A DNA stretch of 31,709 bases. Source: a virus. The notes below the pieces were generated by a model. It made no database searches and was not told where the DNA came from. It was given only the letters and a program-made list of their open reading frames with translations. Each line of letters starts with the position of its first letter. Position 1 is the stretch's first letter. The DNA lies in the IMG/VR virus record IMGVR_UViG_3300020435_000129, positions 1 through 31,709 of that record, one strand, 5' to 3'. Below, piece after piece: positions 7,923 to 28,359 of this stretch. The position numbers and the translations under genes are program-made.

Positions 7923-8902
7923 GCAACCACCTCACCATGCGATAACGCAATCATTGTTTCTTCAGTTTTAGTCAATATGCCGAGTGAACACAATGCTTCG
8001 AATGTTGTTTCTCTACCATGTAGATAAAAGCTGGCGCTTCTAGGTGTTATAACGGCAGGTCCTACCGGATTATGCAAGTCGCCTGTCTTGTCAAAGTGGG
8101 TCACACCGGCTATACCAGATGAATCAACGTATGTCTCGGATACAACAAACCCGTGCGGCGTAGTATCTATAGTCATATTACAGTATTGGTCACTTCTAGA
8201 ACCCGACACCATCGTGCCGTTTTCAAAGAACAGCTTAAGTGTGTAATCACCTTTACTCATATAAATCGCGGGCGCATCACCTACGTTATGGAGTTTTCCG
8301 GCAACTGCGCAAACTTCAATATGAAGAATATATTCCTGTGTTAGGGGATCAAATATCTTGACCTCAATCGCAGGCCCGTCTAAACGGTGCGGCATGCCGT
8401 GCAACATGTGCACACTGTACTCGTAGTCAAAAACGTTAGACTTTCCTTCCAGACAATGGAAAAATATAGCATGGACCGCAGGGCCGTCTGTTTTGTGCAA
8501 GTGATTATTATCGTCTACTTGTATGGCAACCTTACCGATTGCTAAGGCTTCTGGACGTGACCCGCTATTGTTTGGTCCTCCCTTGCGCCAGTGGAAAAAG
8601 CTACGGAAAACCTCGCCGCCAGGTATGTCCGTTACTTCTTCTGCATCACATACTATATCGTACCTAACATCGGTCGCTTCAGTGATAATATCTTCTAATA
8701 CATAAGCGATCCATTGTCGGTATACATCAGTGCCTTGGGAAAGTTTGTCCTGGAGGCTTGTATCAAGCACCCACCACATTCCTTTTGACAGGAATTTTTT
8801 ACTAACTGATTCGTAGTTTATAACGGTATACAACGGGGCAGCCTCGCCTATTAAATCGATAATAGGATCAGCCACAAATATCGGTTCTGACATTTTAATC
8901 AT
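7919..8902 (-). CDS. DGPA-repeat protein, copy 1 (first in the unit)
   Basis: This 327-residue protein has units such as DDNNHLHKTDGPAVHAIF, LHGMPHRLDGPAIEV, AGKLHNVGDAPAIYMS and KTGDLHNPVGPAVITP. The final unit ends FYLHGRETTFEALCSLG, with a closing helix KTEETMIALS. The first 120 residues lack repeats and differ from the other copies. A CTATAAAAG element precedes the ATG at 8902. A second in-frame ATG at 8893 (MSEPIF) is an alternative start; neither has a strong Shine-Dalgarno sequence. Function unknown. Confidence 0.75.
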   Translation of the reverse strand: MIKMSEPIFVADPIIDLIGEAAPLYTVINYESVSKKFLSKGMWWVLDTSLQDKLSQGTDVYRQWIAYVLEDIITEATDVRYDIVCDAEEVTDIPGGEVFRSFFHWRKGGPNNSGSRPEALAIGKVAIQVDDNNHLHKTDGPAVHAIFFHCLEGKSNVFDYEYSVHMLHGMPHRLDGPAIEVKIFDPLTQEYILHIEVCAVAGKLHNVGDAPAIYMSKGDYTLKLFFENGTMVSGSRSDQYCNMTIDTTPHGFVVSETYVDSSGIAGVTHFDKTGDLHNPVGPAVITPRSASFYLHGRETTFEALCSLGILTKTEETMIALSHGEVVA

Positions 8903-8911
8903 GGCGTTCTA

Positions 8912-8920
8912 CTTTTATAG
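8912..8920 (-). promoter_or_regulatory. Late-promoter-like element CTATAAAAG before the DGPA-repeat genes
   Basis: CTATAAAAG lies 9 bases upstream of the first repeat-gene ATG, in a strongly A/T-rich gap after a hairpin terminator. The same 9-mer occurs at 4760-4768, and a one-base-longer form at 9581-9591. Confidence 0.4.
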
Positions 8921-8993
8921 AAATATTACATCAATTCTATATTAGTATTACGCAAAAGTCTAGATATTTAATTTTGTGCGGTTTGTTTGAAAT

Positions 8994-9021
8994 GAAAAAG
9001 CGCCCTTTATATGAGCGCTTT
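8994..9021 (-). terminator. Hairpin terminator after the 55-residue gene
   Basis: AAAGCGC (8997-9003) and GCGCTTT (9015-9021) form a 7-bp stem with an 11-base loop. Read on the minus strand, the stem runs into five T residues, the form of an intrinsic terminator. It ends the transcript of the 9035-9202 gene just before the repeat-gene cluster, so those genes probably need their own promoter. Confidence 0.7.
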
Positions 9022-9034
9022 CTACTGCGGTACT

Positions 9035-9202
9035 TTATCGCGAGGATGAATCACTTTTTTCACTTACGAATTTGTTCAACTCGTTTGCTACTTTAAGTAC
9101 TTCTTCTACTTCGCATTTTTCTGATTCGTTAGATCCGGCAAGAACAATCTTAGTAGCTAATTCCAAAATGTCTGTACGGATTTCAAAGGCATTCTTCGCC
9201 AT
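9035..9202 (-). CDS. Small helical phage protein (55 residues)
   Basis: An open frame on the minus strand starts MAKNAFEIRTDILELATKIV and ends SEKSDSSSR. It has a good ribosome site (GGGAG about 6 bases before the ATG). The opening MAKNAFEIR-x-x-IL resembles a family of short conserved proteins in T4-like marine phages that I recall as starting MAKNAYEIR. That match is from memory and needs a search. The protein is predicted to be mainly helical. A GTAAATA element lies upstream and a hairpin terminator downstream, so it may be its own transcription unit. Confidence 0.68.
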   Translation of the reverse strand: MAKNAFEIRTDILELATKIVLAGSNESEKCEVEEVLKVANELNKFVSEKSDSSSR

Positions 9203-9236
9203 GTAAAACTCCCTAAATATTGTGTATTACTAGGAG

Positions 9237-9243
9237 TATTTAC
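9237..9243 (-). promoter_or_regulatory. Late-promoter-like element GTAAATA
   Basis: GTAAATA on the minus strand lies 34 bases before the ATG at 9202. It is a variant of the CTAAATA element found before several late genes further right. Confidence 0.33.
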
Positions 9244-9266
9244 GATATTTTCACCTTTTGCGGCTA

Positions 9267-9572
9267 TTAGCCAAGATCAATACCAGTCGTATTAGAAATG
9301 TACATCTCTTCCATGTCTTTGGAAGGCAAGTAGTACGAAGTCAATGCATGGCGCATGAATATCACAGTGTCGGCCTCCGGGTTGCCGATTGCGTAGCTAA
9401 ACGGCATAATTTGCCCCTGTCCTTGTATTGCAAGTCGGATGGGCTTTTCTATTATAAGACTAGTGTCGTCCACCGACTTTACTTTACCGATGACTTCTGC
9501 GCCATTTGACATCTGAAACATGAATATTTTTCCAGGTGTCTCGTTTAATGAGTATGTAGGCTGTATGAGCAT
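9267..9572 (-). CDS. Small protein, possibly Sm-like fold
   Basis: This 101-residue protein contains alternating short strands: KIFMFQMSNGAEVIGKVKSV, then SLIIEKPIRLAI, then IMPFSYAIGN and VIFMRHALTSYYLP. A strand carrying 'NGAEVIGKV' followed by 'DDTSLIIEKP' is how Sm/Hfq-like small beta barrels begin (bind, bend and shift strands). Sm-like proteins bind RNA or form rings. The similarity is by pattern only, and a tail-associated or other beta-barrel role is equally possible. It follows nrdB by 13 bases and has its own CTATAAAAAGG element. Confidence 0.6.
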   Translation of the reverse strand: MLIQPTYSLNETPGKIFMFQMSNGAEVIGKVKSVDDTSLIIEKPIRLAIQGQGQIMPFSYAIGNPEADTVIFMRHALTSYYLPSKDMEEMYISNTTGIDLG

Positions 9573-9580
9573 GTGTGATT

Positions 9581-9591
9581 CCTTTTTATAG
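9581..9591 (-). promoter_or_regulatory. Late-promoter-like element CTATAAAAAGG
   Basis: This element lies 8 bases before the ATG at 9572 and overlaps the nrdB stop codon (9586-9588). Its AAGG end may double as the ribosome site. It matches the elements at 4760 and 8912. Confidence 0.37.
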
Positions 9592-10710
9592 TTTTATTTT
9601 GGATGCCAAATCTTTCATGAAGTTTTCAGGCACACGTTTATCGATCTCACCAATAACGTAAGATTCAAGTTCTGTTTCTTGCGGTGCCGCCTGGCGTGTC
9701 TTACCAGCGATCCAGCTCGTAGTCCACGGCAGCGGGTTAGCTTGGCCCGGTGAATACGGACTGTTAAGTTGAATGGCACGCATACGATTATGGCCAATCC
9801 ACTCAACATAATTACATAAAAGACCTTCAGTTAAGCCTATCATCGAGCCTTCTTCAAACAGGAACTTAGCCCATTCTTTCTCTTGCTCGATGGCCTCAAC
9901 GAACAGCGCATTACACTCGTCGCGAGTTTCTTCACGTATTTTTGCAAAGTCCGGATCTTCTTTAGGCAGTGTCTTAATTGCGTTCTGGGTGAACATTAAG
10001 TGAATGTTTTCGTCACGACAAATGAACTTAATGACTTTGGCGTTGCCTTCCATTTTCTTTTGTTCAGCGAATGCCCATGAGCATGCAAACGACACATAAA
10101 AACGAATACCTTCAAGCGCGTTTACTGCATTAAGTGCCATCCATAATGACTTCTTGTGCTCATAAAGACTGAGCTTATCATCATAACCGTGAACGCGCAC
10201 ATAACAATTGTTATAGTCAAGCACATCGTAATACTTGGCAATTGATTTAGCACAATCAACAATTGGCTGGATATTATTAATACCGTCAAACACTTCGCCT
10301 GGATCAGAATACACGTTACGGATAATGTGCGAGTACGATCTGTTATGGATAGACTCAAAGAAACTCCACGTCTCGATAAATGTTTCTGCTTCAGGCAAGG
10401 TAACAACCGGCAAGAACACCAAGTTAGGCGAGCGTCCTTGGATTGAATCTAGCAGAATTTGTCTGCGCAAGTTATACGTGAAGATACGTTGCTCAGCCGG
10501 TGTGAGCTTCTTAAAGTCACGGACGTCTTTGCTTAAGTCAACTTCTTCCGGCTGCCAAAAGTAGCCAACTTGTTGTTCAGTCATGCGCTGAACTGTACTG
10601 TATCTGATTTTATCGTACCGCGCAACTGTTACGCCGTCGTTATCTGCATCCAGAAACGTGTTGCACTGAACGTTGGATTTTACGTTGTCGAGGTTATATA
10701 CTGACTTCAT
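9586..10710 (-). CDS. nrdB: Ribonucleotide reductase class Ia, beta subunit
   Basis: This 374-residue protein carries all di-iron ligands and the radical tyrosine of NrdB. They are D88 (LLDSIQG), E119 and H122 with Y126 (FESIHNRSY), E200 (NALE), and E234 and H237 (RDENIH). The length is close to T4 NrdB (388). With NrdA it reduces ribonucleoside diphosphates to deoxy forms for phage DNA synthesis in the cytoplasm; the beta subunit holds the tyrosyl radical. The start overlaps the inserted gene upstream by 4 bases, so it is translated from the nrdA transcript. Confidence 0.97.
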   Translation of the reverse strand: MKSVYNLDNVKSNVQCNTFLDADNDGVTVARYDKIRYSTVQRMTEQQVGYFWQPEEVDLSKDVRDFKKLTPAEQRIFTYNLRRQILLDSIQGRSPNLVFLPVVTLPEAETFIETWSFFESIHNRSYSHIIRNVYSDPGEVFDGINNIQPIVDCAKSIAKYYDVLDYNNCYVRVHGYDDKLSLYEHKKSLWMALNAVNALEGIRFYVSFACSWAFAEQKKMEGNAKVIKFICRDENIHLMFTQNAIKTLPKEDPDFAKIREETRDECNALFVEAIEQEKEWAKFLFEEGSMIGLTEGLLCNYVEWIGHNRMRAIQLNSPYSPGQANPLPWTTSWIAGKTRQAAPQETELESYVIGEIDKRVPENFMKDLASKIKL

Positions 10711-11597
10711 TTACTCTTCCAAATGTATCTATCTTCATGTTGCATGAACCCGCGGTTCTCCCAGGCTTGCACATTGTCTTTGTAAGGGTTCAAGATTAAA
10801 CTAATTTCTTTAGGGAAAAAAGTTGCCTTAAAGTATTCAGTGATGCGAGTTATTGCGGCATCTACGTGTCTGTCTACCTTTATTGCTTTATTTATAATGC
10901 GCCACTTCCCTTGCGCTTCATTTTCGTAGTCAAAAAGCACAGCGGCGATAAGCTCAGTGCCGCCATACAGTCCTATACAAGTCTTCCCAACAGTAGAGTC
11001 ATCAAAACTATACTTGTTGAAAAAGCTTCTGTATAAACCGACAGGCACACTAACTACCTTAATGGAGTTAGGATGCACATGACCCTTATGAGCCCCGTAT
11101 TCTCTGTTTATGAAGCTCATAGACAGCGAATTCTTCTTATCCCAGTCGTACTCACTCACATGCAAGTACCCAAGCGCAGGTTTAGCGGATATGCCGCGGT
11201 AGTTGCCTTGCTTATAGCCGACTTTATTTTCGTCTATAACTATGTTTTCATCACCTATTAATCGACGCATATATGCGACAATTTGCTCGAAATAAGGCAA
11301 AGTAATCTTTTCTCTAACTTCCTTATCAAGAATGTCACTAATAGGCTCGCTAGGCGTATTACACACATCACCGCCGCAGTACTTCGAATAGCCACGGCCA
11401 GACCACTTAGCGTGTTTGTCGCAATCGTCACATAACACCGCTCCGTAGTTTTCGTTTATTACATGCCATTTCCTTTGAGTCCAGGTCGCACTCTCCGGTA
11501 AGAACGGAGTTGCCATGAGCAACTCCTCCTGCATGTTTTTATTGGCCGCACTTCCCAGCTCTTTGGCTGTCATATTGGATAGTGCTTCAATATTCAT
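10707..11597 (-). CDS. Cysteine-cluster protein between nrdA and nrdB, possible homing-endonuclease relative
   Basis: This 296-residue protein starts at the ATG overlapping the nrdA stop (TAATG), with AAGGA 11 bases upstream; an ATG 12 bases earlier has no such spacing. Around residue 55 it has CDDCDKHAKW followed by YSKYCGGDVC, a likely zinc finger of the kind that opens many phage free-standing endonucleases. The last 100 residues (GLYGGTELIAAVLFDYEN, then NPYKDNVQAWENRGFMQHE) resemble the N-acetyltransferase-like domain found at the end of Hef/VSR-type endonuclease-related proteins. No catalytic nuclease motif is clear. The position between nrdA and nrdB is a known site for mobile endonucleases in T4-like phages. 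Function uncertain. Confidence 0.6.
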   Translation of the reverse strand: MNIEALSNMTAKELGSAANKNMQEELLMATPFLPESATWTQRKWHVINENYGAVLCDDCDKHAKWSGRGYSKYCGGDVCNTPSEPISDILDKEVREKITLPYFEQIVAYMRRLIGDENIVIDENKVGYKQGNYRGISAKPALGYLHVSEYDWDKKNSLSMSFINREYGAHKGHVHPNSIKVVSVPVGLYRSFFNKYSFDDSTVGKTCIGLYGGTELIAAVLFDYENEAQGKWRIINKAIKVDRHVDAAITRITEYFKATFFPKEISLILNPYKDNVQAWENRGFMQHEDRYIWKSK

Positions 11598-13936
11598 TAC
11601 AGTACACATCCTTCACAGTCATCGTCGTCGATAATCTCGACCGGTAACGGCTCTTCTACGGTGTCTTTCTTCTCGGTGCCGTCGCCTTCGTTTGCGTCAT
11701 ACGTGTTCGCGTAATACAACGTCTTAATACCGTGAGAATAGGTGAAGTACAAGTCTTCGATCAACGTAGTGAGTGGTATTTTACTCTTCATCTCGCCGCC
11801 GTTTGCATCAAGTGTTTTGAAGTGTAACGGGTTATAACTTGTGTTGGCAGATATAGTCTGGTCCATATAGCGCTGCAACACAGCCATAATAGACAAGTAC
11901 CCACGCGGCGACTCTTGATCCCATAACAGTTCGTACTTGTTTTTGTACTTACTGTACTCAGGCACTACTTGTTTAAATACACCATGCTTGCTTGACTTTT
12001 CACTAACAAAACCACGCGGTGGTTCAACACCATTAGTAGCATTAATTAGCTGGCTAGAAGACTCGCTCGGCATACATGCCATCATCGCCGCATTACGAAC
12101 GCCGTGCTCTTTCATATCAGCACGTAACGACTCCCAGTCCATGCGCAAGTTCAAAGGCACCAAGTCATTGACATTTTTATGCGCAGTTTCCCACGGGAAT
12201 AGTCCCTGACCGTATTTGGTCTCGTGCGACAATTCACACGCGCCTTTCTCTTTAGCAAGCTGAACAGAAGCTTTAATGATGTAGAAGCTCATTGCTTCCA
12301 TATACTCGTCGACTAGCTCTAGCGCTGACTCTTGCGTATACCCGGTGCCGTTCTTGGCAAGGAAGTAGGCTAAGTTGTTGATACCTATACCCAAAGTCCT
12401 AAACTCTCTGGTAGAAAGCTCAGCTTGAATAGCCGGATAATTTTGGTACGATAATAACGCGTCAAGACTACGAACAGCTAATTCACAAGGTTTTTCAAAG
12501 TCTTCAGGCTTATTAATTACGCCCCAGTTAATTGCCGATAGCGTACATAGTGCAATGCGGCCTGATTCATCATGTAGTGACTCAAAAGGCTTAGTAGGCA
12601 ACGTAATCTCAGCACACAAGTTAGACATAGTCACAGGGTGTTTGGTTTGATCAAACGAGCTATGAGTATTACAGTGGTCGATATTCTGCAAGTAAATTCG
12701 ACCAGTGTTTTGTCTTTCATCTAGAAACTGCGACATCAACTCATACGCGTTAACTTTGCGCTTGTACGCAACTTTAGGTGACTTTTCTAACTCACTGTAA
12801 AGCTTGGCAAATGCATCGTTATCGCCTGAGTAAAACGTGTCCCATAACTGCGGCACTTCACTTGAGTTAAACAAGGTAACATCTTGCCCGGCTAGTGCAC
12901 GTTCATATATTAGCTTGTTAAACTGAATACCGTAGTCTACGTGGCGAACACGGCTTTCTTCAGTCCCTTTGTTGTTTTTAGCAACAAGTAGGTTTTCTAC
13001 TTCACCATGGAAGTAAGGATAATACACTGTGGCAGAACCACCGCGTACACCGCCCTGCGAACAAGACTTAAGTGCTGCCTGGAAATACTTAAGGAACGGA
13101 ATAACGCCGGTATGTTCAACATCACCGCCTCGCACTTTAGTACCAACTGGGCGAATGCGTCCAATATTAATACCAATGCCTGCTTTCTGTGAAACATAGT
13201 TTACGATGGCAGACGACGTCGCGTTAATCGAATCCAAACTATCTGCTGACTCAATAAGTACACAAGAACTGAACTGCTTTTCGCGTGTTCTGGCGCCCGC
13301 TAGAACCGGTGTCGGCACACTAATCTTAAATTTACTCAACGCATCGTAGTACTCTTTAACAAACTTCATACGGGTGGATGCGGGGTAATCATGGAACAGG
13401 GTAGCAGCGATCAACACATATGCCACCTGCGGGGTTTCAAAGTGTTCTTCTTTCACTCGATCCTGTGCCAGATACTTACCTAACCACTGCCCCATGCCAG
13501 CGTAACTGATATCATAGTCACGATCATGCTTGATGATTTTGTTAAGATAATTTAACTCCTCGTCACTGTACCACTCTTTGAGTTCTTCAGTGTACCATCC
13601 TAGGGTAATGTTGCGCTCGACAATCTTACGCAAGTGCCACGGTTCAGGCTGACCGTATACTTCTTTACGTAAGTTAAAGTTCACTAACTTACTCGCAACG
13701 TATTGGTAGTTACTGTCTTCAGGGGTGATCAAATCAGCTGCGGTTTTAGTTAGCGTTTTATGAATCGCTTGTGATTCCATCCCATCGTAGAAGTAAAGCT
13801 TTGATTTAAGTTCTATTTGTGATGGCGAAACACCGGTTAAGCCGTTACATGCCCACTGTACTACTTTGTGAATTTTCTCGATATTGAAGGGCTCGAGTGA
13901 ACCGTCACGCTTCTTAATGCGGATCTCTTCTGTCAT
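11597..13936 (-). CDS. nrdA: Ribonucleotide reductase class Ia, alpha (catalytic) subunit
   Basis: This 779-residue protein starts at the ATG at 13936 (MTEEIRIKKRDGS); an 18-codon in-frame extension upstream overlaps the previous gene and is probably not used. An ATP-cone occupies about residues 1-95, so allosteric activity control is likely kept. Catalytic residues are C225 (FSSCVLIE), N439, C441 and E443 (NLCAEITLPT) and C464 (ALCTLSAIN). The radical-transfer tyrosine pair is in LYYANTYD, and the C-terminal redox pair is CEGC (C774, C777), spaced by two residues rather than the four of the E. coli enzyme. It pairs with NrdB encoded two genes downstream. Confidence 0.97.
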   Translation of the reverse strand: MTEEIRIKKRDGSLEPFNIEKIHKVVQWACNGLTGVSPSQIELKSKLYFYDGMESQAIHKTLTKTAADLITPEDSNYQYVASKLVNFNLRKEVYGQPEPWHLRKIVERNITLGWYTEELKEWYSDEELNYLNKIIKHDRDYDISYAGMGQWLGKYLAQDRVKEEHFETPQVAYVLIAATLFHDYPASTRMKFVKEYYDALSKFKISVPTPVLAGARTREKQFSSCVLIESADSLDSINATSSAIVNYVSQKAGIGINIGRIRPVGTKVRGGDVEHTGVIPFLKYFQAALKSCSQGGVRGGSATVYYPYFHGEVENLLVAKNNKGTEESRVRHVDYGIQFNKLIYERALAGQDVTLFNSSEVPQLWDTFYSGDNDAFAKLYSELEKSPKVAYKRKVNAYELMSQFLDERQNTGRIYLQNIDHCNTHSSFDQTKHPVTMSNLCAEITLPTKPFESLHDESGRIALCTLSAINWGVINKPEDFEKPCELAVRSLDALLSYQNYPAIQAELSTREFRTLGIGINNLAYFLAKNGTGYTQESALELVDEYMEAMSFYIIKASVQLAKEKGACELSHETKYGQGLFPWETAHKNVNDLVPLNLRMDWESLRADMKEHGVRNAAMMACMPSESSSQLINATNGVEPPRGFVSEKSSKHGVFKQVVPEYSKYKNKYELLWDQESPRGYLSIMAVLQRYMDQTISANTSYNPLHFKTLDANGGEMKSKIPLTTLIEDLYFTYSHGIKTLYYANTYDANEGDGTEKKDTVEEPLPVEIIDDDDCEGCVL

Positions 13937-20061: not shown

Positions 20062-21048
20062 TTATTTCTTTTGCTTGCCAAGTTGACGTAAACGCGCAGA
20101 TATCTGATACGCCAGTGTCAAGTCGTTCATTAACTCGGCAAGGTCCATCCTTACTCGACTAGCAGATTCTGGACTTAAAGACTTCTGGCCTTTCAGAGAC
20201 TTGTTAACCATAACTAGTCTGCTTGCCACACTATTTAAGAACGCGGCCACTGTGTCACTGCTATTTTTAGGCGAAACACTAAACGGCTTTCCAAGTTTCT
20301 TCTCGAAATCACCCAGCTTCATCATCGCAACAGATTCATCAATCGGACTGGTACGAAGCACTTTGCTCAGCGCTGCCCCAATCGGCTTTATCTTTTCGAA
20401 CGTACCGGCGATGTCCGCCTCTATCTCAGGAGAAATAGTATACGGTAGTTCGTGAGATAGGTTGTGGCCGGAAACTTTATCGCTTGCCACAATTGCGCCA
20501 GACAACAGTTCTTTGAACATAGGCGCTGCGTCGATATCAGCTTCAAAAGCTTCTATCATTTCACACATTTCACGTATACGGCGTATGGTAGCCATATTCT
20601 CTCTTAGATCTTCTAAGAAGCTCACGTTCTTTTGTATTTTCACATCCTTACAAAGAGCACTAAACTCGTCAAATACCTGGCTAAGGCACGCACAGCCATC
20701 CACACCTACTACTTCGGGATCGTTTATATTAAACGACATAGGATCAGCTAGGCCAAGGCGGCCAGTGGACATATAGTCTAGATTCTTCTTAAAGTCGATA
20801 ATACCTTCTTTTACGATAGCTTGCTTGTTGCTTGCTTTCTTTTTAGGGGCAGGTTCTTGCATGCTGTACTCTACACTTTCTGATAAATCAGAATGTTGAA
20901 GGAACTTGGTAAATTTAGCAGCATAATCAGCGTCCAGTGCAAGTTCACGGTCGCCTTCAAATTTAGAATTCTCAGAAAGAATGGGATGCGACATATATGT
21001 GTCCATCGCCGCTTCTGACAAAAATTTAATTTTAATGTATTTGTTCAT
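20062..21048 (-). CDS. Hypothetical late protein, helical
   Basis: This 328-residue, mostly helical protein starts MNKYIKIKFLSEAAMDTYM. A lysine-rich linker (EPAPKKKASNKQ) at about 66-77 separates the first part from the rest. The C-terminal third (ASRVRMDLAELMNDLTLAYQ) is a long helix. The linker and helical build could suit an internal head or assembly protein, but there is no recognisable motif. It has a CTAAATA element upstream and its own short leader, and lies just before the abundant-protein gene. Confidence 0.6.
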   Translation of the reverse strand: MNKYIKIKFLSEAAMDTYMSHPILSENSKFEGDRELALDADYAAKFTKFLQHSDLSESVEYSMQEPAPKKKASNKQAIVKEGIIDFKKNLDYMSTGRLGLADPMSFNINDPEVVGVDGCACLSQVFDEFSALCKDVKIQKNVSFLEDLRENMATIRRIREMCEMIEAFEADIDAAPMFKELLSGAIVASDKVSGHNLSHELPYTISPEIEADIAGTFEKIKPIGAALSKVLRTSPIDESVAMMKLGDFEKKLGKPFSVSPKNSSDTVAAFLNSVASRLVMVNKSLKGQKSLSPESASRVRMDLAELMNDLTLAYQISARLRQLGKQKK

Positions 21049-21093: not shown

Positions 21094-21120
21094 AAGAGGC
21101 GAGTGTTAGTCCCGCCTCTT
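21094..21120 (-). terminator. Hairpin overlapping a stop codon, possible terminator
   Basis: AAGAGGCG (21094-21101) and CGCCTCTT (21113-21120) form an 8-bp stem with an 11-base loop. The second arm encodes the last residues of the gene ending at 21106. The T run after it is poor (CTTGTT), so termination would be weak. Confidence 0.45.
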
Positions 21121-21813
21121 CTGTCTGCCTACTTGGTACCCTGTAAGGGCGGCTAGTGCTACAGCTGAAAGAGTGTCAACAGTAGTGCCGGCGTCTTGCA
21201 TCTTAGCCGGTATTAGTGGATCGAAATAAGGCAATATCTCTAAACGAGGATTATACCTGCGCAATAGCATCTTGGCGTCTTTGTAAGCATAAACTCGCTG
21301 AACCGGTGTGATTTCCGCCAGCTGGATAACCTTACGCCTAAGACGCTTAATCTTCTTGTCACTTATTAATAACATGCTTTCAAATGAAAACAGATAAAAG
21401 CTTAGTTTTGATTTAGTAACAGGCATATCACCGCGCAACATTTTAAAATAGTCAATCAAATGGCGCTGTGAATGTTTCGTTGTTTCGTTATTGTACTTGT
21501 ACTTGGGGTTGTTGCCCAGTACAGTTGCACACATAAGAGCAACGTCGTTCAACCGGGTGTATGCTTTGTTGAAGTTTTTATACACAAGTGCTTCGTCAGC
21601 GTACTGTGCGATTGCCTTGTGGCTCTGGCGCTCTTGGACAAGCATAGCCATAGACACCAGTGTCAAATACAACATCTCACACAACGTCTTATAACTATAC
21701 TTATTCAATCCAGTTAGCGTGTAAAAGAAGCCGCGGGCTTCTGATAATTCAGAAACTAACGACTCGCTTTTTGTTTCGTTGAAGGGCCACTGCTTGGTGT
21801 AATTATCGGCCAT
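21106..21813 (-). CDS. Hypothetical helical protein with hydrophobic C terminus
   Basis: This 235-residue protein starts at ATG 21813 (MADNYTKQWPFNETKSE), which overlaps the previous gene by 11 bases and has CAGGT close upstream. It is mainly helical, with a hydrophobic stretch near residues 45-58 (TLCEMLYLTLVSMAML) and a short one near the end (TLSAVALAALTGYQVG) followed by RQKRRD. The latter could be a membrane or packing helix. No family is recognised. It follows the nucleotidyltransferase gene and is translationally coupled to it. Confidence 0.6.
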   Translation of the reverse strand: MADNYTKQWPFNETKSESLVSELSEARGFFYTLTGLNKYSYKTLCEMLYLTLVSMAMLVQERQSHKAIAQYADEALVYKNFNKAYTRLNDVALMCATVLGNNPKYKYNNETTKHSQRHLIDYFKMLRGDMPVTKSKLSFYLFSFESMLLISDKKIKRLRRKVIQLAEITPVQRVYAYKDAKMLLRRYNPRLEILPYFDPLIPAKMQDAGTTVDTLSAVALAALTGYQVGRQKRRD

Positions 21814-22711
21814 TACCTGTCCCCATATACTTCGCAACCTCTGGCGGATATTCGAAGTCACCGCCTGCTAAATCAGGTTTGGTGTCAAAGTTCCTAGCCA
21901 TAGTCCTAAACACCGACTCGGCCGCATCTGCGGTGTAGTACTTTTTAACCGCGGCGATAAGACTCTCAGCACTGTCTAGTACCTTAGCATCTGCCTTGCC
22001 CTGGAAAAGAACATCAGCAATCCCTTTGGCGTCAGTTACAGGTTCACTAATAACCTTGTCATCCTGCTTTTTAACCCACCCGCCGGTGGCCTTTTTACGG
22101 GAGGTTCTTTCTACTTTCACTAACCCGTCCTTAGGACTCCACTTCCAGCGGATAATCTTAACCGGGCGGCCATAGCTATCTATCTCGTCACTTGATTGAC
22201 GATCAACATGCGCGGCTATACTAGCTATCGCCAAGTTGCGATGTGTTCCTTTCAATTTAGAATCCTTAGAAGACGGCGAATGAAAATAAAGTTTAAGCCA
22301 TTCAGGGTTACCGAATATAAAGTCCACCTGCACATATCCTGTGCGGGGCTGCCTCTTGTCCTTTTTAGGATTGTAGCCCTGGATCTTAACCGCGGTTGTT
22401 ATTAAGCCACCTACTTGACGCACGTTTTCTTGACCTAGTACTTTCTTTAGCCTTTCGATAAACTTTCCTAGTTCTTCCGGGTTTTTAGGCTTAAGTGCAA
22501 TATCGACATCACCACTGTACTCTTTTTTGCCAACTGATCCAAGCACATGTGAACCTAGATCGGGTATTTGAAGGACTTGAGCCAACCCGTTAATAGTAGG
22601 TTCTATTTCACTTATATGAATGGCGCCGACGTTACTGAAGGCGTTGCCGCCCTCAGTTAGAAGCATAGCGCTGTACGACTGTTTTAATCCCGAAATATCT
22701 TCTAAAAACAC
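21803..22711 (-). CDS. Polymerase-beta-type nucleotidyltransferase
   Basis: This 302-residue protein has the polymerase-beta superfamily motif: VLGSVGKKEYSGDVDIAL gives G58-S59 and the D68-x-D70 metal pair, and D130 in YVQVDFIF fits the third carboxylate. Such enzymes transfer a nucleotide to RNA, DNA, protein or a small molecule; the target here cannot be told. The start is GTG at 22711, with AAGGA nine bases upstream; the next in-frame ATG is 15 codons on and would remove the conserved-looking start. It sits two genes after a ligase-like gene. Confidence 0.78.
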   Translation of the reverse strand: MFLEDISGLKQSYSAMLLTEGGNAFSNVGAIHISEIEPTINGLAQVLQIPDLGSHVLGSVGKKEYSGDVDIALKPKNPEELGKFIERLKKVLGQENVRQVGGLITTAVKIQGYNPKKDKRQPRTGYVQVDFIFGNPEWLKLYFHSPSSKDSKLKGTHRNLAIASIAAHVDRQSSDEIDSYGRPVKIIRWKWSPKDGLVKVERTSRKKATGGWVKKQDDKVISEPVTDAKGIADVLFQGKADAKVLDSAESLIAAVKKYYTADAAESVFRTMARNFDTKPDLAGGDFEYPPEVAKYMGTGNGR

Positions 22712-22720
22712 AGGTATTCC

Positions 22721-23209
22721 TTAATCTGTATTACCGCTGAACGACTGCAATTCAGATTTCAAAATAGTTATGAACGTGTCGAGGTCAAACTCACGACTGC
22801 CGGGCAACGATCGTATAAGGGTTAGTATTTCGTCGTCATAATCGTCGTTTTCTAGCGCATCTACAAGTGCGCGGGCTTGCGGATATTCCAGGTTGTACTC
22901 TTTAACGAAGTACTCAGCATCAGGGTTATTATCAGTAACAATAGCCGATCCTGGGCGGTATGTTTTTTCAGATACAGATTTTATGTCACTTTCAGCCTGA
23001 CTGATTAGCGATTCAATGTCGTGGCCGGTACGGCGACGAATGGTCGAAAAATCACCCATTCCCTCAACAACAAGTCTCTCGTTACGGTTAACGATACGAA
23101 AGCGTTTCTGTGGGTCATTGTACATAGTGGTGGCTTTTGAGTCCATATCTAGGTTTAGATTGAACTCAGCCAGTTTAGCTCGGTTGTATTTCCTATTTCT
23201 TATTGGCAT
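22721..23209 (-). CDS. Hypothetical protein between ligase-like and nucleotidyltransferase genes
   Basis: This 162-residue protein starts MPIRNRKYNRAKLAEFNLNL, with GGAG seven bases upstream. The N terminus is basic, the middle has FRIVNRNERLVVEGMGDF, and the C-terminal 70 residues are acidic and helical (ALVDALENDDYDDEILTLIR). No motif is recognised. It begins a new transcript after a hairpin and a TTAAATA element, and its stop lies 9 bases before the nucleotidyltransferase start, so the two are probably co-expressed. Confidence 0.62.
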   Translation of the reverse strand: MPIRNRKYNRAKLAEFNLNLDMDSKATTMYNDPQKRFRIVNRNERLVVEGMGDFSTIRRRTGHDIESLISQAESDIKSVSEKTYRPGSAIVTDNNPDAEYFVKEYNLEYPQARALVDALENDDYDDEILTLIRSLPGSREFDLDTFITILKSELQSFSGNTD

Positions 23210-23221
23210 GTATAACTCCGA

Positions 23222-23246
23222 AAATAAGGTTTCTTATACCTTATTT
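23222..23246 (-). terminator. Hairpin, possible weak terminator overlapping a promoter-like element
   Basis: AAATAAGGT (23222-23230) and ACCTTATTT (23238-23246) pair over 9 bp with a 7-base loop, and the minus-strand transcript ends in four T residues. The stem is A/T rich. One arm overlaps the TTAAATA element at 23242-23248, so the site may end the ligase-like transcript and start the next. Confidence 0.5.
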
Positions 23247-23248
23247 AA
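23242..23248 (-). promoter_or_regulatory. Late-promoter-like element TTAAATA
   Basis: TTAAATAAGGTA on the minus strand lies 33 bases before the ATG at 23209. It differs from the CTAAATA elements by its first base. Confidence 0.35.
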
Positions 23249-23253
23249 GGAAG

Positions 23254-25323
23254 TTATCCAAAAGCGGTTTCTATTCTGTTGCCCAGTACCACACGATAAA
23301 GCTGAACTGATTCACTTGCTGCCTTAGTAATACGTAACAGGGCTTCAAGCTTTTGTTTTGCTTCACAGAATGCGACCAAAGTGCGACTATGTATACAGTC
23401 GTCAGCGTAGGAAATCTCAACGCCATTTGGAATGGTTATCGACAAATCCTTATAGGTATTTAGGTACTCACCAAGCATAATTTGATGACTACGAAGCGCA
23501 CGAGTAAGGATGTCTGCAAACTTTTCTTTTACGTAAACCACGTCAAGGCTACCCTCGATAAGTTTAAGGAACTTTTCGTAGGTTTCTGCTTGTGAACGGA
23601 TCACACGTTTGGCCGAAATAGTAGCATAACGAGTATCACCTAGTATATAGGCAAGTTCTAACATTGTCTTACCGACTATCGAATCGTTCTTGCTGTTTAA
23701 TACAGTAGACTTGATCTCTTCTCGCTTTTGCCATATAAAGTTCTTAGCTTCCAAGAATGTGGATTTGTCGACTATCTTAAACATGAAGCCGTCAGGGTGC
23801 TTAATTACTATGCCTTCAATCCAGCTATCTTCCCTATCAGAGAACTTACTCGTACTAGAATGCACAAGCGCAGTCAGAAGATGATTCTTTACTTTTTGTT
23901 TTGCTTCTTTGATTTTATCACGGCACGGGTTTCTCGAGTCTTTGATTTTCTGCTTCAAAGAATTCCAAGTATCTTGATCAGTATCTTCAGGGCGTTTGCT
24001 GTTCAATTTAAAGTTCGCAACTTCGCTTACTGTCATGCCCGTCTCAGCATCTGTCTCGCCTAGAATCGCGTTATATTGCTCGATTGCAGTACTTATTTCA
24101 CTTTTCGCTAAGGACTCTTGTAAGAACTCCTGCGACATTTGCGGTACTTCACTAAACATAACTTTAGATGTTCGCTTTTCCTTTATCACAGTAGTACCGT
24201 CTCTACTAACCAAACATTCATGTTCGACGCTAGTGATGCCGTTTGAATCGTATATCTCCACTACTTTAGGCATTATATGCGGGTCGCCTTTTAACTGTCT
24301 TAATAACACAATATCATTCACAGCATCATCGTAACGGATTACGTTGGGTATCTCGTCGTAAAGTACTTCTACTTCTATCTCAAAGTCGCCCAGTAATGAT
24401 ACCTCGCTTTCGCAAGCTAGCAATGCGCGGTGGGCAAATATGCGATAATTGCTGCTGAAGTTCTCGGGATGATCATCAACAGCATAAACTTTATCCAGGT
24501 TCCCGAACACAGTATACATTTGGCCGTTTTCTACGCCAAATCGCAGGTTGCTGCCGTCTAGTTTCTCAGTCACAACACAGAGCTCCAAATCATTAATTGC
24601 TCTGTAAAACAACGTATCGTCTAAATCTTCTATATGAGTGATCCCGCGCTTCTTTTCAACTGGCGCGGCGTGTTCATTAATCAGTGAATGTTTATATTCA
24701 GGACTCAGTGTACTTTGTCGAATAATGCTACGGTATATACGTGGCGCGGATTCAAACATAGTAGTCACGACGCCCACTGCCTCGGATAACACCATATACG
24801 CGGTTGGTAGTAATGAACTACCGTAAAGCGAAAGTATTTCACCTAACAATAATTGCCAATAATCTTGTACCTGCGGGGTGGATGCGTGTTTGTACGGGTA
24901 ATTTGCTAACGAAAGCATAGTAATAAACGCACACTCGTCGCGTTGTGATAGAACCAGTTCTGGGTTAAGGTCGGGATCACCGAATCCTAGTTGGCCGTCG
25001 TGTGTTCGGATCACGTCTGAGTCTAATCCCGTCATTATAACGTACTTGAAAGCTCGGTTCGCTTCATTACTAAGAAAGTACGAGGACGATACATAACGTA
25101 GAGTTGAGAGGACAGAAGTCTCTGGCTGTGCTGATAATTGCACACATAGGTCCACCACATCTTTGACAGACACGTTGCTTGACGCAGCAACTTGGTTAAT
25201 CATCTGCAGGTTAGTAGTAACAGCCTGTTCTATAATCTCGCCAGCTTTGCGTGATATAGACGTATCACGTGGTTCTAAAACCTGCAAAAACTTACCGGCC
25301 AAGGCGTTTTTTTCTTTTTTCAT
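23254..25323 (-). CDS. Ligase-like covalent nucleotidyltransferase, 689 residues
   Basis: Motif I of DNA/RNA ligases and capping enzymes is EKLDGSNLRFG, with the nucleotide-accepting K254. GDFEIEVEV (312-320) fits motif III/IIIa, EGIVIK (503-508) fits motif IV, and FKIVDK (515-520) fits motif V. A 180-residue insert separates motifs III and IV, and a 235-residue N-terminal part and a helical C-terminal part (540-689) are unlike known ligases. It could join or repair nucleic acid, or be a virion-associated relative such as the KWDG-type proteins of T4-like phages. AAAGG lies nine bases before the start. Confidence 0.78.
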   Translation of the reverse strand: MKKEKNALAGKFLQVLEPRDTSISRKAGEIIEQAVTTNLQMINQVAASSNVSVKDVVDLCVQLSAQPETSVLSTLRYVSSSYFLSNEANRAFKYVIMTGLDSDVIRTHDGQLGFGDPDLNPELVLSQRDECAFITMLSLANYPYKHASTPQVQDYWQLLLGEILSLYGSSLLPTAYMVLSEAVGVVTTMFESAPRIYRSIIRQSTLSPEYKHSLINEHAAPVEKKRGITHIEDLDDTLFYRAINDLELCVVTEKLDGSNLRFGVENGQMYTVFGNLDKVYAVDDHPENFSSNYRIFAHRALLACESEVSLLGDFEIEVEVLYDEIPNVIRYDDAVNDIVLLRQLKGDPHIMPKVVEIYDSNGITSVEHECLVSRDGTTVIKEKRTSKVMFSEVPQMSQEFLQESLAKSEISTAIEQYNAILGETDAETGMTVSEVANFKLNSKRPEDTDQDTWNSLKQKIKDSRNPCRDKIKEAKQKVKNHLLTALVHSSTSKFSDREDSWIEGIVIKHPDGFMFKIVDKSTFLEAKNFIWQKREEIKSTVLNSKNDSIVGKTMLELAYILGDTRYATISAKRVIRSQAETYEKFLKLIEGSLDVVYVKEKFADILTRALRSHQIMLGEYLNTYKDLSITIPNGVEISYADDCIHSRTLVAFCEAKQKLEALLRITKAASESVQLYRVVLGNRIETAFG

Positions 25324-25456
25324 CGTGTAATGCCTTTACAAAAACGGTCTTCTCTGTGCTTTTTAGACTATTGTAGACAGCTTCCGCTTTCGGGTCTACC
25401 GTTTCCTTGTCGGCTGAGCCGTTCGGGTTAAGCCAAACTTTACTTTTTCTGGCCAT
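25292..25456 (-). CDS. Small basic protein overlapping both neighbours
   Basis: A 54-residue frame starts MARKSKVWLNPNGSADKETV and ends HDEKRKKRLGR. AAGGA lies eight bases before its ATG. It overlaps the 97-residue gene's end by 17 bases and the ligase-like gene's start by 32, and without it there would be a 116-base gap between tightly packed genes. It is lysine-rich, so nucleic-acid binding is possible. Existence is likely but not certain. Confidence 0.58.
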   Translation of the reverse strand: MARKSKVWLNPNGSADKETVDPKAEAVYNSLKSTEKTVFVKALHDEKRKKRLGR

Positions 25457-25733
25457 TTATCGATTCCTTTAACTGACGCTCAAACTTGTCAGTATTTTTC
25501 GCTTTTACTGCGTTACAGAATTTCCGTTCCACAACTACTGCAACTTCTTCACCGTAGTTAGCTTCTAGTGAATTGAAAAAATTCAGAGCGGCTTCGAGCA
25601 CCTTGATTCCGCGCTCAGTGTGCTCGTCAGACATATGATCTACAGGTATGTCTGCAAACTGCCCAAGAATATCTTGCAGCGATTTACGACTCTCCGGTAT
25701 CGAATCATAATTATCTAAATCAGATACTTTCAT
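25440..25733 (-). CDS. Hypothetical small protein after the helicase gene
   Basis: This 97-residue protein starts MKVSDLDNYDSIPESRKSLQ and ends RQLKESINGQKK. It is predicted to be helical, with an acidic front half and basic end. It lies 24 bases after the helicase gene and overlaps the small basic gene by 17 bases. It could be a helicase accessory protein by position, but no motif supports this. Confidence 0.6.
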   Translation of the reverse strand: MKVSDLDNYDSIPESRKSLQDILGQFADIPVDHMSDEHTERGIKVLEAALNFFNSLEANYGEEVAVVVERKFCNAVKAKNTDKFERQLKESINGQKK

Positions 25734-25757: not shown

Positions 25758-27158
25758 TTAATCACTTCTACGCAAACTATTCCTAACTTTAGAGAACGCG
25801 TCAACTGTACTAGACGCATCTTGCGTAGGTGCGGGCGGCTCTTTGCCCATTGTTCCTTTCTTATTTATAGAATCTAGAATAGAACTGGTTTGTGTCTCAA
25901 TACTTCCGCGTTCGCCTTCTTCGAGATCGTCCATCTGCATAGTAGCAGGATTGTATTTTAAATCAATACGCTTACCTACACCACTTGAAGAACGTGTCTT
26001 TAAAAGTTGTAACTGATAACGACCGTTCTCTTTCATAGTGTTAGTTACGTAAATTCCAAACACGTTATCAGCTGTGTTGATTTTAGATACGCCGCCTGCA
26101 ATGTGCTGGTGCCCAAAGTCAACAGCTTCGTGACTGTCACGGTTAAGCTGCGAGGCTGTATCCAATACAACATCTAATTCAGCAGCTAAGTCACGCAACT
26201 CTTCCGACACATATTTGTCTTTCGTGAATACATCACTTGCATTTACTTTGGTACGGTAAGGCGAACATAAGTCCAAGTAGTCAACGCACAGTTTGTTTAC
26301 TTTACGACCTGTCTGGATCTGATACTCTTTAACGTAAGCACGAATCTCAGCAGCAGTGGTTCCGGACGGAAAACGTTTTATCTGTAGTGAGCCGCCATAC
26401 TTTTTAGCAAACATAGCAATACGAGTCGAGGCGTCTTCACTATCCCTCATCACGTTTTGTGTGCTTAGGCCCGCAAACATAGCGTCTAGACGCAACGCAC
26501 ACAAGTCCTCTGACAGTTCCAGTGATATGTACATCGCATTTTCGCCACGCATGACAGACTTTCTTGCAGAGTTTTGTAGGAAAATACTCTTACCAGTCCC
26601 GGACTGCCCTGCATAAATGTTAAGTGAACCTACTTCAACGCCACCGAACAACGCGTGGTCTAAATCTCGGTATCCCGTAGACACAAGAGGTTTCTTCTCT
26701 TTCATGCGCTGCAAGCGCCCTAACGGGTCGTCGAAGTAATCAGTACCCAAGTCTTTGACGAGGCCTACTTGAACTGCTTCTTTAACTAGTTGCTCAACGC
26801 TACCGTATTCTTTCTTTTCAATCAGTCGCGGCGCATCAAGAACAGCTTTGATGATTTCCTTGTGTCGAGCAAACTTTTCGTAATTATCAAGGAACCATTC
26901 CTTGTGCTCATCTTGCAGGTCCTTTGTTACGTTGAATTGTTTGCCCACCACCGCTTTTAATTGATCCAAGTCAGGCAATGCACTGTATTCATCAGCATAT
27001 TTTACCATGAAATCGACAGTCTTTTTATTTGTCTCAGAGGCATAGTGATCAGGCTTAATCACATTACGACAGCGCACAAATAATTCAGGATCGCTTAAGA
27101 AAAATTGAATGAATAACTCCTCGACCTGCGGAGTATACTCTTGGATGTAATCAGACAT
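25758..27158 (-). CDS. 41: Replicative DNA helicase, DnaB/T4 gp41-like
   Basis: This 466-residue protein has the RecA-fold of DnaB-type helicases. Walker A is AGQSGTGKS (183-191), Walker B is KLCVDYLDL (D293), and the Q motif is TASQLNR (Q337). An N-terminal helical domain of about 150 residues precedes it, as in gp41. It would form a hexamer, unwind DNA 5'-3' at the replication fork and bind the primase encoded just upstream. The start overlaps the primase gene's end by 8 bases, with AAGGAT upstream of the ATG. Length is close to T4 gp41 (475). Confidence 0.93.
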   Translation of the reverse strand: MSDYIQEYTPQVEELFIQFFLSDPELFVRCRNVIKPDHYASETNKKTVDFMVKYADEYSALPDLDQLKAVVGKQFNVTKDLQDEHKEWFLDNYEKFARHKEIIKAVLDAPRLIEKKEYGSVEQLVKEAVQVGLVKDLGTDYFDDPLGRLQRMKEKKPLVSTGYRDLDHALFGGVEVGSLNIYAGQSGTGKSIFLQNSARKSVMRGENAMYISLELSEDLCALRLDAMFAGLSTQNVMRDSEDASTRIAMFAKKYGGSLQIKRFPSGTTAAEIRAYVKEYQIQTGRKVNKLCVDYLDLCSPYRTKVNASDVFTKDKYVSEELRDLAAELDVVLDTASQLNRDSHEAVDFGHQHIAGGVSKINTADNVFGIYVTNTMKENGRYQLQLLKTRSSSGVGKRIDLKYNPATMQMDDLEEGERGSIETQTSSILDSINKKGTMGKEPPAPTQDASSTVDAFSKVRNSLRRSD

Positions 27159-28359
27159 TCATATCCTTTTTTAGATTTATTGTTAGTGGATTAGTCTCTA
27201 CGCTAGCTAGTATACTTTGGATTGTATAAATCCTACCGTACTTAGCAGCAGCGGCTGCCGCGTCCTTAAATTTATGTTTCCATGGCGGAAACGATACTGA
27301 CCAGCCTTCCCTTATGGCTATGTCAATCAAGTCGTCGCCGTCTTTGTCGTTATCGGGCACAACAATTACAGGCATGCCTAAATTTTTGATCATGTATATC
27401 TGATCATCGTTAATGTTTCTTCCGCCACATGCCATGCCTTGCATAACATACGCGTCAATAACACCTTCATACAACACCGCAAACGTTCGTTTGTAGTTGT
27501 TATGGAATAAGTGGTAATTGAATATCGCATCGTCCGGCATCATTGAATGATACTTTTTGATCTTAGCAGCACGGTCGTTTACTGCACGCGCCGTATAACC
27601 GATCCGTTTACCGCCAAATTCAAACGGAAGTATTATACGATTGCCTGCTTCTTTAGTGACAGCGTAACTCCAACATATATCGTCAAACTCAAGTAAGTCA
27701 CGTTCATACATATAAAGCAAACACTCATTCACATCAGCAGGAATAGGATGTCCTAGTTCAGCTCTATCAAGGTAATAACTCATAGGTTTTGCATCGCCAG
27801 GATAACTATGCTCACGTGACCAGCGCTTTGTTATTTGCACGTAACGGGTACTAAACTCGTTGAACTCAGGCATAACATTATCTGTTATCCTAGTCCTAAG
27901 TATCTGACGTATTTGTTTCTCGTCTTTTATAAGACTTTGGGCAACTTCGTTGAGTTTGGGCTTCTTGTCTTTGAATAATTCAGCGAACGGAACTTCAGTT
28001 TCTTCGGGCTCCGGTTCAAGCATCAAATCAGAGATGACACCGCTATGTAGATCCTCGAATAGCCCGTACTTAATCTCATCTATGAGTTGCTTTTTAACGC
28101 CGAGTTGGCGCATAAATGACTTGAGCGGCTTGCTCATCTGTTTCTTGTGGTATTCGTATTTGAACTTAAAGCCGCAATTGAAGCATGACCCGCCGAAGCC
28201 TTTATGATCGACTTTCATACCGAAACGTTTCTTGGTGTCAGGCGAGTGTCCTTTAGTAACACACATCGGGCAATTTCTAGTCCTGAAACCCTTTCTTGAA
28301 ATTTTATGTGGCCCGAAATTCTCTAGTATAGTATCTAGTAACTTCTGATCCCAGCTCAT
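27151..28359 (-). CDS. 61: DNA primase, T4 gp61-like
   Basis: This 402-residue protein has an N-terminal zinc ribbon (C30, C33, C59, C62; NCPMCVTKG and CFNCGFKF). A Toprim catalytic domain follows: the acidic motif is YEGVIDAYV, and PDNDKDGDDL is the D-x-D-x-D element. It makes short RNA primers for lagging-strand DNA synthesis in complex with the gp41 helicase encoded next to it. Length is similar to T4 gp61 (342) with about 60 extra residues. A purine-rich AGAAGAA precedes the ATG. Confidence 0.92.
   Translation of the reverse strand: MSWDQKLLDTILENFGPHKISRKGFRTRNCPMCVTKGHSPDTKKRFGMKVDHKGFGGSCFNCGFKFKYEYHKKQMSKPLKSFMRQLGVKKQLIDEIKYGLFEDLHSGVISDLMLEPEPEETEVPFAELFKDKKPKLNEVAQSLIKDEKQIRQILRTRITDNVMPEFNEFSTRYVQITKRWSREHSYPGDAKPMSYYLDRAELGHPIPADVNECLLYMYERDLLEFDDICWSYAVTKEAGNRIILPFEFGGKRIGYTARAVNDRAAKIKKYHSMMPDDAIFNYHLFHNNYKRTFAVLYEGVIDAYVMQGMACGGRNINDDQIYMIKNLGMPVIVVPDNDKDGDDLIDIAIREGWSVSFPPWKHKFKDAAAAAAKYGRIYTIQSILASVETNPLTINLKKDMNV

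Follow-up and report, generated by a model that had tools for sequence, protein, structure and literature searches.

Two neighbouring genes on a 31.7-kb virus fragment encode a ligase-type protein and a polymerase-like nucleotidyltransferase, and the same two genes keep company, sometimes as a single fused protein, across very different phages. The fragment, hereafter the window, is the whole stretch of 31,709 nucleotides analysed from IMG/VR record IMGVR_UViG_3300020435_000129. The pairing of ligase and nucleotidyltransferase is real and ancient, and the new element reported here is the presence, in part of the clusters of both enzymes, of prohead-protease-like sites exactly at the domain starts. 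We favour, at a probability of roughly 45%, the reading that the two proteins form a gap-fill-and-seal kit which a broad set of T4-like phages would package in their heads and eject with the genome. If this is true, large phages would arrive equipped with a virion-borne end-joining or gap-repair system for mending the genome as it enters, a stage at which host defences act.

Two predicted enzymes with complete active sites

A preliminary description, made from the letters of the window, had placed a ligase-like enzyme close to a nucleotidyltransferase; both open reading frames (ORFs) lie where it put them, on the minus strand, and both active sites are complete. The ligase-type protein (689 residues, 23254..25323) has Lys254 in the motif EKLDG (codon 24562-24564), Glu319, Glu503-Gly504 and Lys516, which is to say the motif I lysine together with motifs III, IV and V of the Rnl2/Rnl5 type (PF09414). 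Its catalytic core occupies approximately residues 225-689, and residues 1-217 are a lineage-specific extension. As the pattern used to scan for ligases demanded EKxDG, only ligases found by way of the nucleotidyltransferase served to assess conservation, and 30/30 of these retain Lys254, Asp256, Gly257, Glu319, Glu503, Gly504 and Lys516. Pfam RNA_ligase matches the window protein with E 1.8e-5 and 25.4 bits, slightly below the 27-bit cut-off (the relative L111 scores 27.8), and at E<=1 the family members match RNA_ligase in 42/50 cases and DUF6267 in 7/50. In the AlphaFold model, the core (residues 225-689) has a predicted local distance difference test score (pLDDT) above 90, with low values over the first ~220 residues. 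The best VIA structural match to this core is the nick-sealing RNA ligase of Naegleria gruberi (Z 9.4, 186 residues, 3.7 Å), followed by T4 Rnl2 (Z 8.0-8.7), REL1 (8.0) and T4 Rnl1 (7.7), with DNA ligases lower at about 6. Direct profile comparison of the ligase family with T4 Rnl2 gave no match (E 0.25). As modelled, the core has its best matches among nick-sealing RNA ligases. The genome of the window has no other match to RNA_ligase.

The nucleotidyltransferase (302 residues, 21803..22711, with a GTG start behind a good ribosome-binding site, aagga) has Asp68, Asp70 and Asp130 (codons 22508-22510, 22502-22504 and 22322-22324) in place as its fold requires. Nucleotidyltransferases reached only through the ligase all have the two DxD aspartates and Asp130 (9/9), and the DxD...D triad in its GS motif context, as expected of family X polymerases, is invariant in 42/42. 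The residues singled out in the preliminary description are thus where it placed them in both enzymes and are conserved beyond chance; a lack of the catalytic lysine in relatives of the ligase, which would have counted against it, is not what these relatives show. Sequence libraries say little about this second protein: it had no match beyond chance in Pfam, NCBIfam or PHROGs, and searches of PDB sequences with both family profiles returned chance matches only.

Structure is more informative, and both the ligase core and the nucleotidyltransferase were modelled confidently (pLDDT 91.5 for the latter). At E<=0.001 Foldseek matched 27 PDB entries, every one of them pol beta or pol mu, and VIA ranked pol lambda, pol beta and TdT at Z 8.3-8.8 (3.5-4.8 Å, 153-200 residues, covering palm and thumb), with pol lambda the best (Z 8.8, 190 residues, 3.7 Å); for both proteins, absence of a family from the VIA results was not used as evidence. 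Residues ~29-249 of the predicted model align to residues 148-335 of pol beta, again palm and thumb. In the BFVD viral library Pithovirus DNA polymerases come next after the protein's relatives from phages, and profile alignment (hhalign) with 74 bacterial and archaeal PolX proteins gave E 0.0038 over 137 columns, spanning GS...GDxD, QVD and the segment beyond. Model and motifs liken the protein to a family X polymerase that lacks the 8-kDa/helix-hairpin-helix (HhH) part, and we stop short of assigning it to the family. Other assignments were tried and rejected. RlaP (PF10127) does not match the window protein at E<=1 (for its relatives, 25 of the 27 matched Pfam families are covered, so that a stray match in one relative is possible), and hhalign with 14 RlaP proteins reached E 0.6 over 22 columns; CCA-adding enzymes reached hhalign E 0.05 over short stretches, with profile and genome searches against them. 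Nor is Arg158 claimed to correspond to the template-contacting arginine of PolX, the alignment being ambiguous there.

Linkage and fusion across phages

Relatives in IMG/VR were collected by two independent pattern scans, one per gene (one of which took in the best 80 of 123), together with our own profiles and loci from protein searches. Clustering at 90% identity yielded 63 nucleotidyltransferase and 68 ligase clusters, the frame-split L106 being counted twice among the former. A ligase lies within 5 kb of the nucleotidyltransferase in 46 of the 63 clusters and is fused to it in four others (50/63 linked or fused), with four more having too little flank to judge; a DUF6267 (ligase-like) protein is the partner in five, fused in four and linked in one. 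Seen from the ligase, 45 of the 68 clusters are linked to a nucleotidyltransferase, four are fused and ten have too little flank. Protein searches of isolated phages returned 12 records with the ligase (11 PA5oct-type Pseudomonas jumbo phages and Sinorhizobium phage Phosso) and 28 with the nucleotidyltransferase, comprising those 12 with Lak phages, Atu_ph07 and Flavobacterium phage immuto; the Atu_ph07 ligase was added by a search starting from Phosso. The two genes are neighbours in PA5oct, Phosso and Atu_ph07. The preliminary description would have fallen had the genes been unlinked in related phages; instead they are linked, and sometimes fused, across very different ones.

The pair sits in a conserved block with the order primase, helicase, ligase, nucleotidyltransferase. 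Measured against the ligase, the helicase is upstream on the same strand in 54/54 loci and the primase in 51/51. Seven ligase loci lacking the nucleotidyltransferase have an exonuclease gene immediately next to the ligase (distance -61 to 144 bases). Larger ligase relatives (~1000-1250 residues), whose long C-terminal part is acidic in L116 and in L119, occur at L116, L119, L126, L127, L125, L122 and L130, again with a directly adjoining exonuclease gene and no nucleotidyltransferase. In Flavobacterium phage immuto, gp088 (L013:11132-13855) comes directly after the nucleotidyltransferase copy and combines a second Pol-beta-type domain with a cytidylyltransferase-like domain and a possible peptidase. 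Beyond phages, a narrow pattern scan of 84,980 bacterial and archaeal genomes, which could miss distant relatives of the nucleotidyltransferase, yielded 51 matches, and no relative was confirmed among them.

The fusions extend to DUF6267 (PF19782), whose motifs KWDG...EGYV...K-V-D/N-R align to the ligase family by hhalign with E 5e-7 over motifs IV-V. It is fused to the pair's nucleotidyltransferase in 30 ORFs, with the nucleotidyltransferase first and the ligase-like domain second. These motifs suggest that DUF6267 is a KxDG domain of ligase type that has diverged, which would be the first functional suggestion for a family labelled hypothetical in the cyanophage records examined; we found no mention of it in the open-licence PMC papers searched. 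DUF6267 is common in cyanophages (L061:2583-4391; P-SSM4, L295:5280-6206; ACG-2014j, L296:5335-6540), where the gene is placed behind the gp41 helicase and is followed by a cytidyltransferase gene.

Candidate head-targeting leaders and prohead-protease sites

T4 gp21 cleaves after L/I-X-E (PMC9026906), and the available part of a published account has the first ten residues of IPIII as enough for targeting. The window's nucleotidyltransferase starts with a candidate capsid-targeting leader of 20 residues (22652..22711, minus strand) that ends in MLLTE/GG, where the slash marks the predicted prohead-protease cut after L-T-E. Ahead of the conserved start GGNxF, a site of the form L/I/V/M/F-x-E is found in 22/63 nucleotidyltransferase clusters (19 by script, and L025, L050 and L143 by reading); ahead of GITHxEDL, a site is found in 23/68 ligase clusters, with a methionine close by in 17. 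A few false pattern matches were discarded on inspection, namely L135 among the nucleotidyltransferases and, among the ligases, matches in L023 and L048 that lie downstream of KxDG, and the ligases of L078, L082 and L091, whose TFK/PFK leader lies slightly before the domain, stand outside the 23. A site is also present at the junction in 4/4 ligase-nucleotidyltransferase fusions and before the KWDG domain in 31/31 DUF6267 ORFs (only five clusters); the background of the motif within both proteins is 1.7%. Within the first 40 residues the strict site occurs in 19/60 nucleotidyltransferases and 23/68 ligases versus 3/109 helicases and primases (Fisher 2e-7 and 2e-8, for sequences that are related and hence not independent), the separate controls being 1/57 helicases, 2/52 primases and 0/42 for another neighbour.

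The leaders themselves are of a recognisable kind. Ligases of L078 and L091, from two lineages, begin MITFKQFIxE/A, near-identical to the MKTYQEFIAE/A with which T4 IPII and IPIII begin, and the nucleotidyltransferases of the same two loci begin MLTFKxxFLxE/GG. An S77 prohead protease and Gp23 are encoded in 15/15 records, including the 310-kb record matching the window, and the Gp23 propeptides carry LLE/G or LFE/S-type sites. T4-like leaders were also seen on cytidyltransferases of cyanophages and Methylophilales phages and on their neighbours, for example MKKFSAFLKE/A and MQGFKTFLSE/A (L295:6193-7344; L297:5204-6289 and 7915-9867), hinting at more head-packaged nucleotidyltransferases.

Proteomic records bear on the same point. 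The nucleotidyltransferase of PA5oct, gp253, is labelled 'structural protein, ESI-MS/MS' (electrospray ionisation tandem mass spectrometry), and in Atu_ph07 the available part of the published account reports 29 virion-detected proteins from CDS 31-76, the cluster that holds both genes (gp065 and gp066), as a figure for the cluster as a whole (PMC6102473). The packaged role entertained in the preliminary description is thus well supported by the anatomy of leaders and sites, as predicted from sequence, with proteomic support that is thin.

Possible roles, genomic setting and known systems

Late in infection, both proteins would be made, from separate genes or, in certain phages, within a single polyprotein, and a short N-terminal leader resembling the capsid-targeting sequence of T4 internal proteins would take them into the head. 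An S77-type prohead protease may cut after L/I-x-E, to leave a mature nucleotidyltransferase starting at GGNxF and a ligase starting at GITHxEDL. Once inside the next host, the family-X-like enzyme would add nucleotides at 3' ends or gaps by two-metal DxD...D chemistry, and the ligase, self-adenylated on Lys254, would then seal the leftover nick. The likeliest substrate is the incoming DNA, with gaps, nicks and cuts from packaging, virion damage or host nucleases, and such mending would precede the synthesis of new repair proteins. Gap filling and sealing from the head is favoured as the reading that uses all the parts; DNA is preferred to RNA on account of the kind of polymerase, the setting behind primase and helicase and the neighbouring exonuclease, and the ligase fold favours RNA. 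A fuller version, in which a polymerase-ligase kit in the heads of T4-like phages of several deep lineages, sometimes made as a protease-cut polyprotein, mends the genome (or host RNA) before phage gene expression, is offered tentatively. Given the fusions, the predicted cut sites at their junctions and the two active sites, the idea lends itself to direct testing in phages already isolated (PA5oct, Atu_ph07, Phosso and cyanophages).

Several observations weigh against packaged gap repair. Leaders are not universal: the initiator methionine directly precedes GG in 20/63 nucleotidyltransferases and another residue does so in 16 more, and the window's own ligase lacks a clean site, having INE/H in the linker SLINE/HAAPVEKKRG ahead of its core (24643..24687, minus strand), a weak candidate with His after Glu that was left out of the site counts. 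The strict site also occurs in 122/798 other neighbourhood ORFs, as expected if many of these are head proteins, and the excess over this set is smaller (Fisher 0.003 and 0.0003). In PA5oct the ligase, gp256, carries no mass spectrometry note, both gp253 and gp256 are without a leader although gp253 was detected, and the same record labels ribonucleotide reductase and UvsX as ESI-MS/MS, so that detection may include carry-over. The kinship with family X has weak points of its own, with a low hhalign probability for PolX (8.7-22.8%), a VIA Z near 8.8 that is modest, and only ~20-30 residues ahead of the palm, with no Pfam match there to the 8-kDa/HhH part found in PolX. A partner within 5 kb is missing from 4/63 nucleotidyltransferase clusters (L013, L014, L015 and L046) and 9/68 ligase clusters, and the genome of the window encodes a separate ATP-dependent DNA ligase.

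The preliminary description had proposed repair of cut tRNA. In such a scheme the nucleotidyltransferase would restore RNA ends and an Rnl2-like ligase would rejoin tRNA or rRNA cut by host defence, packaging serving immediate action. The closeness of the ligase core to RNA ligases and the RNA_ligase matches across its family speak for it, as do tRNA genes in 13/15 records and a published analogue in RlaP plus RNA ligase. Against this, the nucleotidyltransferase is neither RlaP nor CCA-like; canonical RNA ligases occur elsewhere in 10/15 records, far above cut-off (best E 3.4e-20 or lower); a search of 11 records with PF10127 found no match at the pair and a separate RlaP gene elsewhere in Atu_ph07; and the block stands behind primase and helicase, with an exonuclease often abutting the ligase where the nucleotidyltransferase is absent. 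The tRNA proposal is not supported as it was put, given a nucleotidyltransferase that falls outside RlaP and best matches family X, and a ligase whose best matches are nick sealers; an RNA repair kit we consider unlikely, though the most credible of the rivals.

Less likely than packaged gap repair, too, are a role in replication from within the cell, protein nucleotidylation and structural relics. That the pair is an unpackaged replication or recombination accessory in the infected cell, its leaders due to chance or regulation, would suit the fixed place directly behind primase and helicase, the many members without a leader and the failure of mass spectrometry to see the PA5oct ligase; it is improbable in view of sites that coincide exactly with both domain starts and with every fusion junction, and of leaders like that of IPIII. 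Slightly more doubtful is a takeover of the host in which the packaged pair nucleotidylates host proteins or small molecules, in the manner of T4 Alt or of proposed protein-directed Pol-beta enzymes. T4-type leaders imply injection, and protein nucleotidylation has been proposed, in the available part of PMC5512222, for some Pol-beta domains that arrive with invading DNA; but the Pol-beta folds described there are minimal and come from conjugative elements, whereas palm and thumb are predicted here, and a partner, separate or fused, that is a ligase of nick-sealing type argues for polynucleotides. That these are inactive relics serving as structural head proteins, as the head-protein neighbours and the 'structural protein' label in PA5oct might suggest, is very improbable with active-site residues kept in every one of the ligases and nucleotidyltransferases sampled without selecting on them.

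Around the pair in the window, the features of the block all lie on the minus strand. Upstream are a small protein matching PHROG 11854, 'virion structural protein' (25440..25733; E 1.1e-5; 51/74 loci), a DnaB-like replicative helicase (25758..27158; PHROG 19, E 1.7e-69; 60/74 loci) and a DNA primase (27151..28359; PHROG 47, E 3e-21; 58/74 loci); downstream are head or tail genes, an exonuclease and ribonucleotide reductase. The gene after the nucleotidyltransferase (21106..21861, minus strand), whose real start is probably an ATG near 21813, has a head-protein-like cleavage site in the first 40 residues in 16/20 relatives. A position among late genes, as first described, therefore gives half the context: head genes are nearby, but the pair follows replication genes. 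Similarly, the small protein noted between the two enzymes exists (162 residues, 22721..23209, minus strand), but in only 2/74 loci, both of the window's close lineage; it is an unrelated ORF, rejected as a third partner and not part of the system. Both enzymes recur on one strand of the 310-kb viral contig with 100% identity over the matched residues, and a DNA-level search of phage records gave no match to the window. Elsewhere in the window, a 328-residue ORF (20062-21048), seen only in the close lineage, begins MNKYIKIKFLSE/A and is another candidate for a capsid-targeting leader near the pair; four overlapping ORFs (4779-8902; 363, 331, 355 and 327 residues) without PHROG matches share weak similarity (E down to 4e-6) and are probably a tandem family of diverged paralogues; and a homing-endonuclease-like ORF (10707-11609) lies between the two ribonucleotide reductase genes.

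We found no published description of this pair in the open-licence PMC papers searched, a partial coverage, but a comparable system has been described: RlaP paired with an RNA ligase has been published for jumbo phages, though with a different nucleotidyltransferase (PMC7824862). Like RlaP with Rnl1 or Rnl2, for which end repair was proposed in that study, the present pair sets a nucleotidyltransferase of the Pol-beta superfamily beside an ATP ligase; unlike it, the pair draws on another nucleotidyltransferase family and another ligase branch, with gene adjacency or fusion and head-targeting leaders. With polyvalent proteins of phages and conjugative elements it shares the principle of multi-domain cargo entering with invading DNA, some of it proposed to be cut apart, whereas their Pol-beta domains are minimal, come from conjugative elements and, in the available part of that account, are shown with no such ligase pairing (PMC5512222). 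To family X DNA polymerases (pol beta, lambda, mu, TdT and bacterial PolX), the predicted structure is likened by palm and thumb, the GS...GDxD...D triad and the QVD strand; it differs in having no 8-kDa/HhH domain and in an identity of ~11-20% in structural alignments, and its polymerase activity is putative. The ligase has motifs I, III, IV and V and the nucleotidyltransferase core of the nick-sealing RNA ligases of Naegleria gruberi, T4 (Rnl2) and trypanosomes (REL1), but adds a long insert and a helical C-terminal region of its own. Known packaged proteins of T4-like phages inhibit defence or modify the host, the internal cargoes of T4 being defence inhibitors or an ADP-ribosyltransferase. 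With T4 IPI, IPII, IPIII and Alt, the pair has in common a short N-terminal leader ending in L/I-x-E and an S77 protease in the same genomes; what sets it apart, with cleavage as yet predicted, is that the cargo would be a polymerase-ligase pair.

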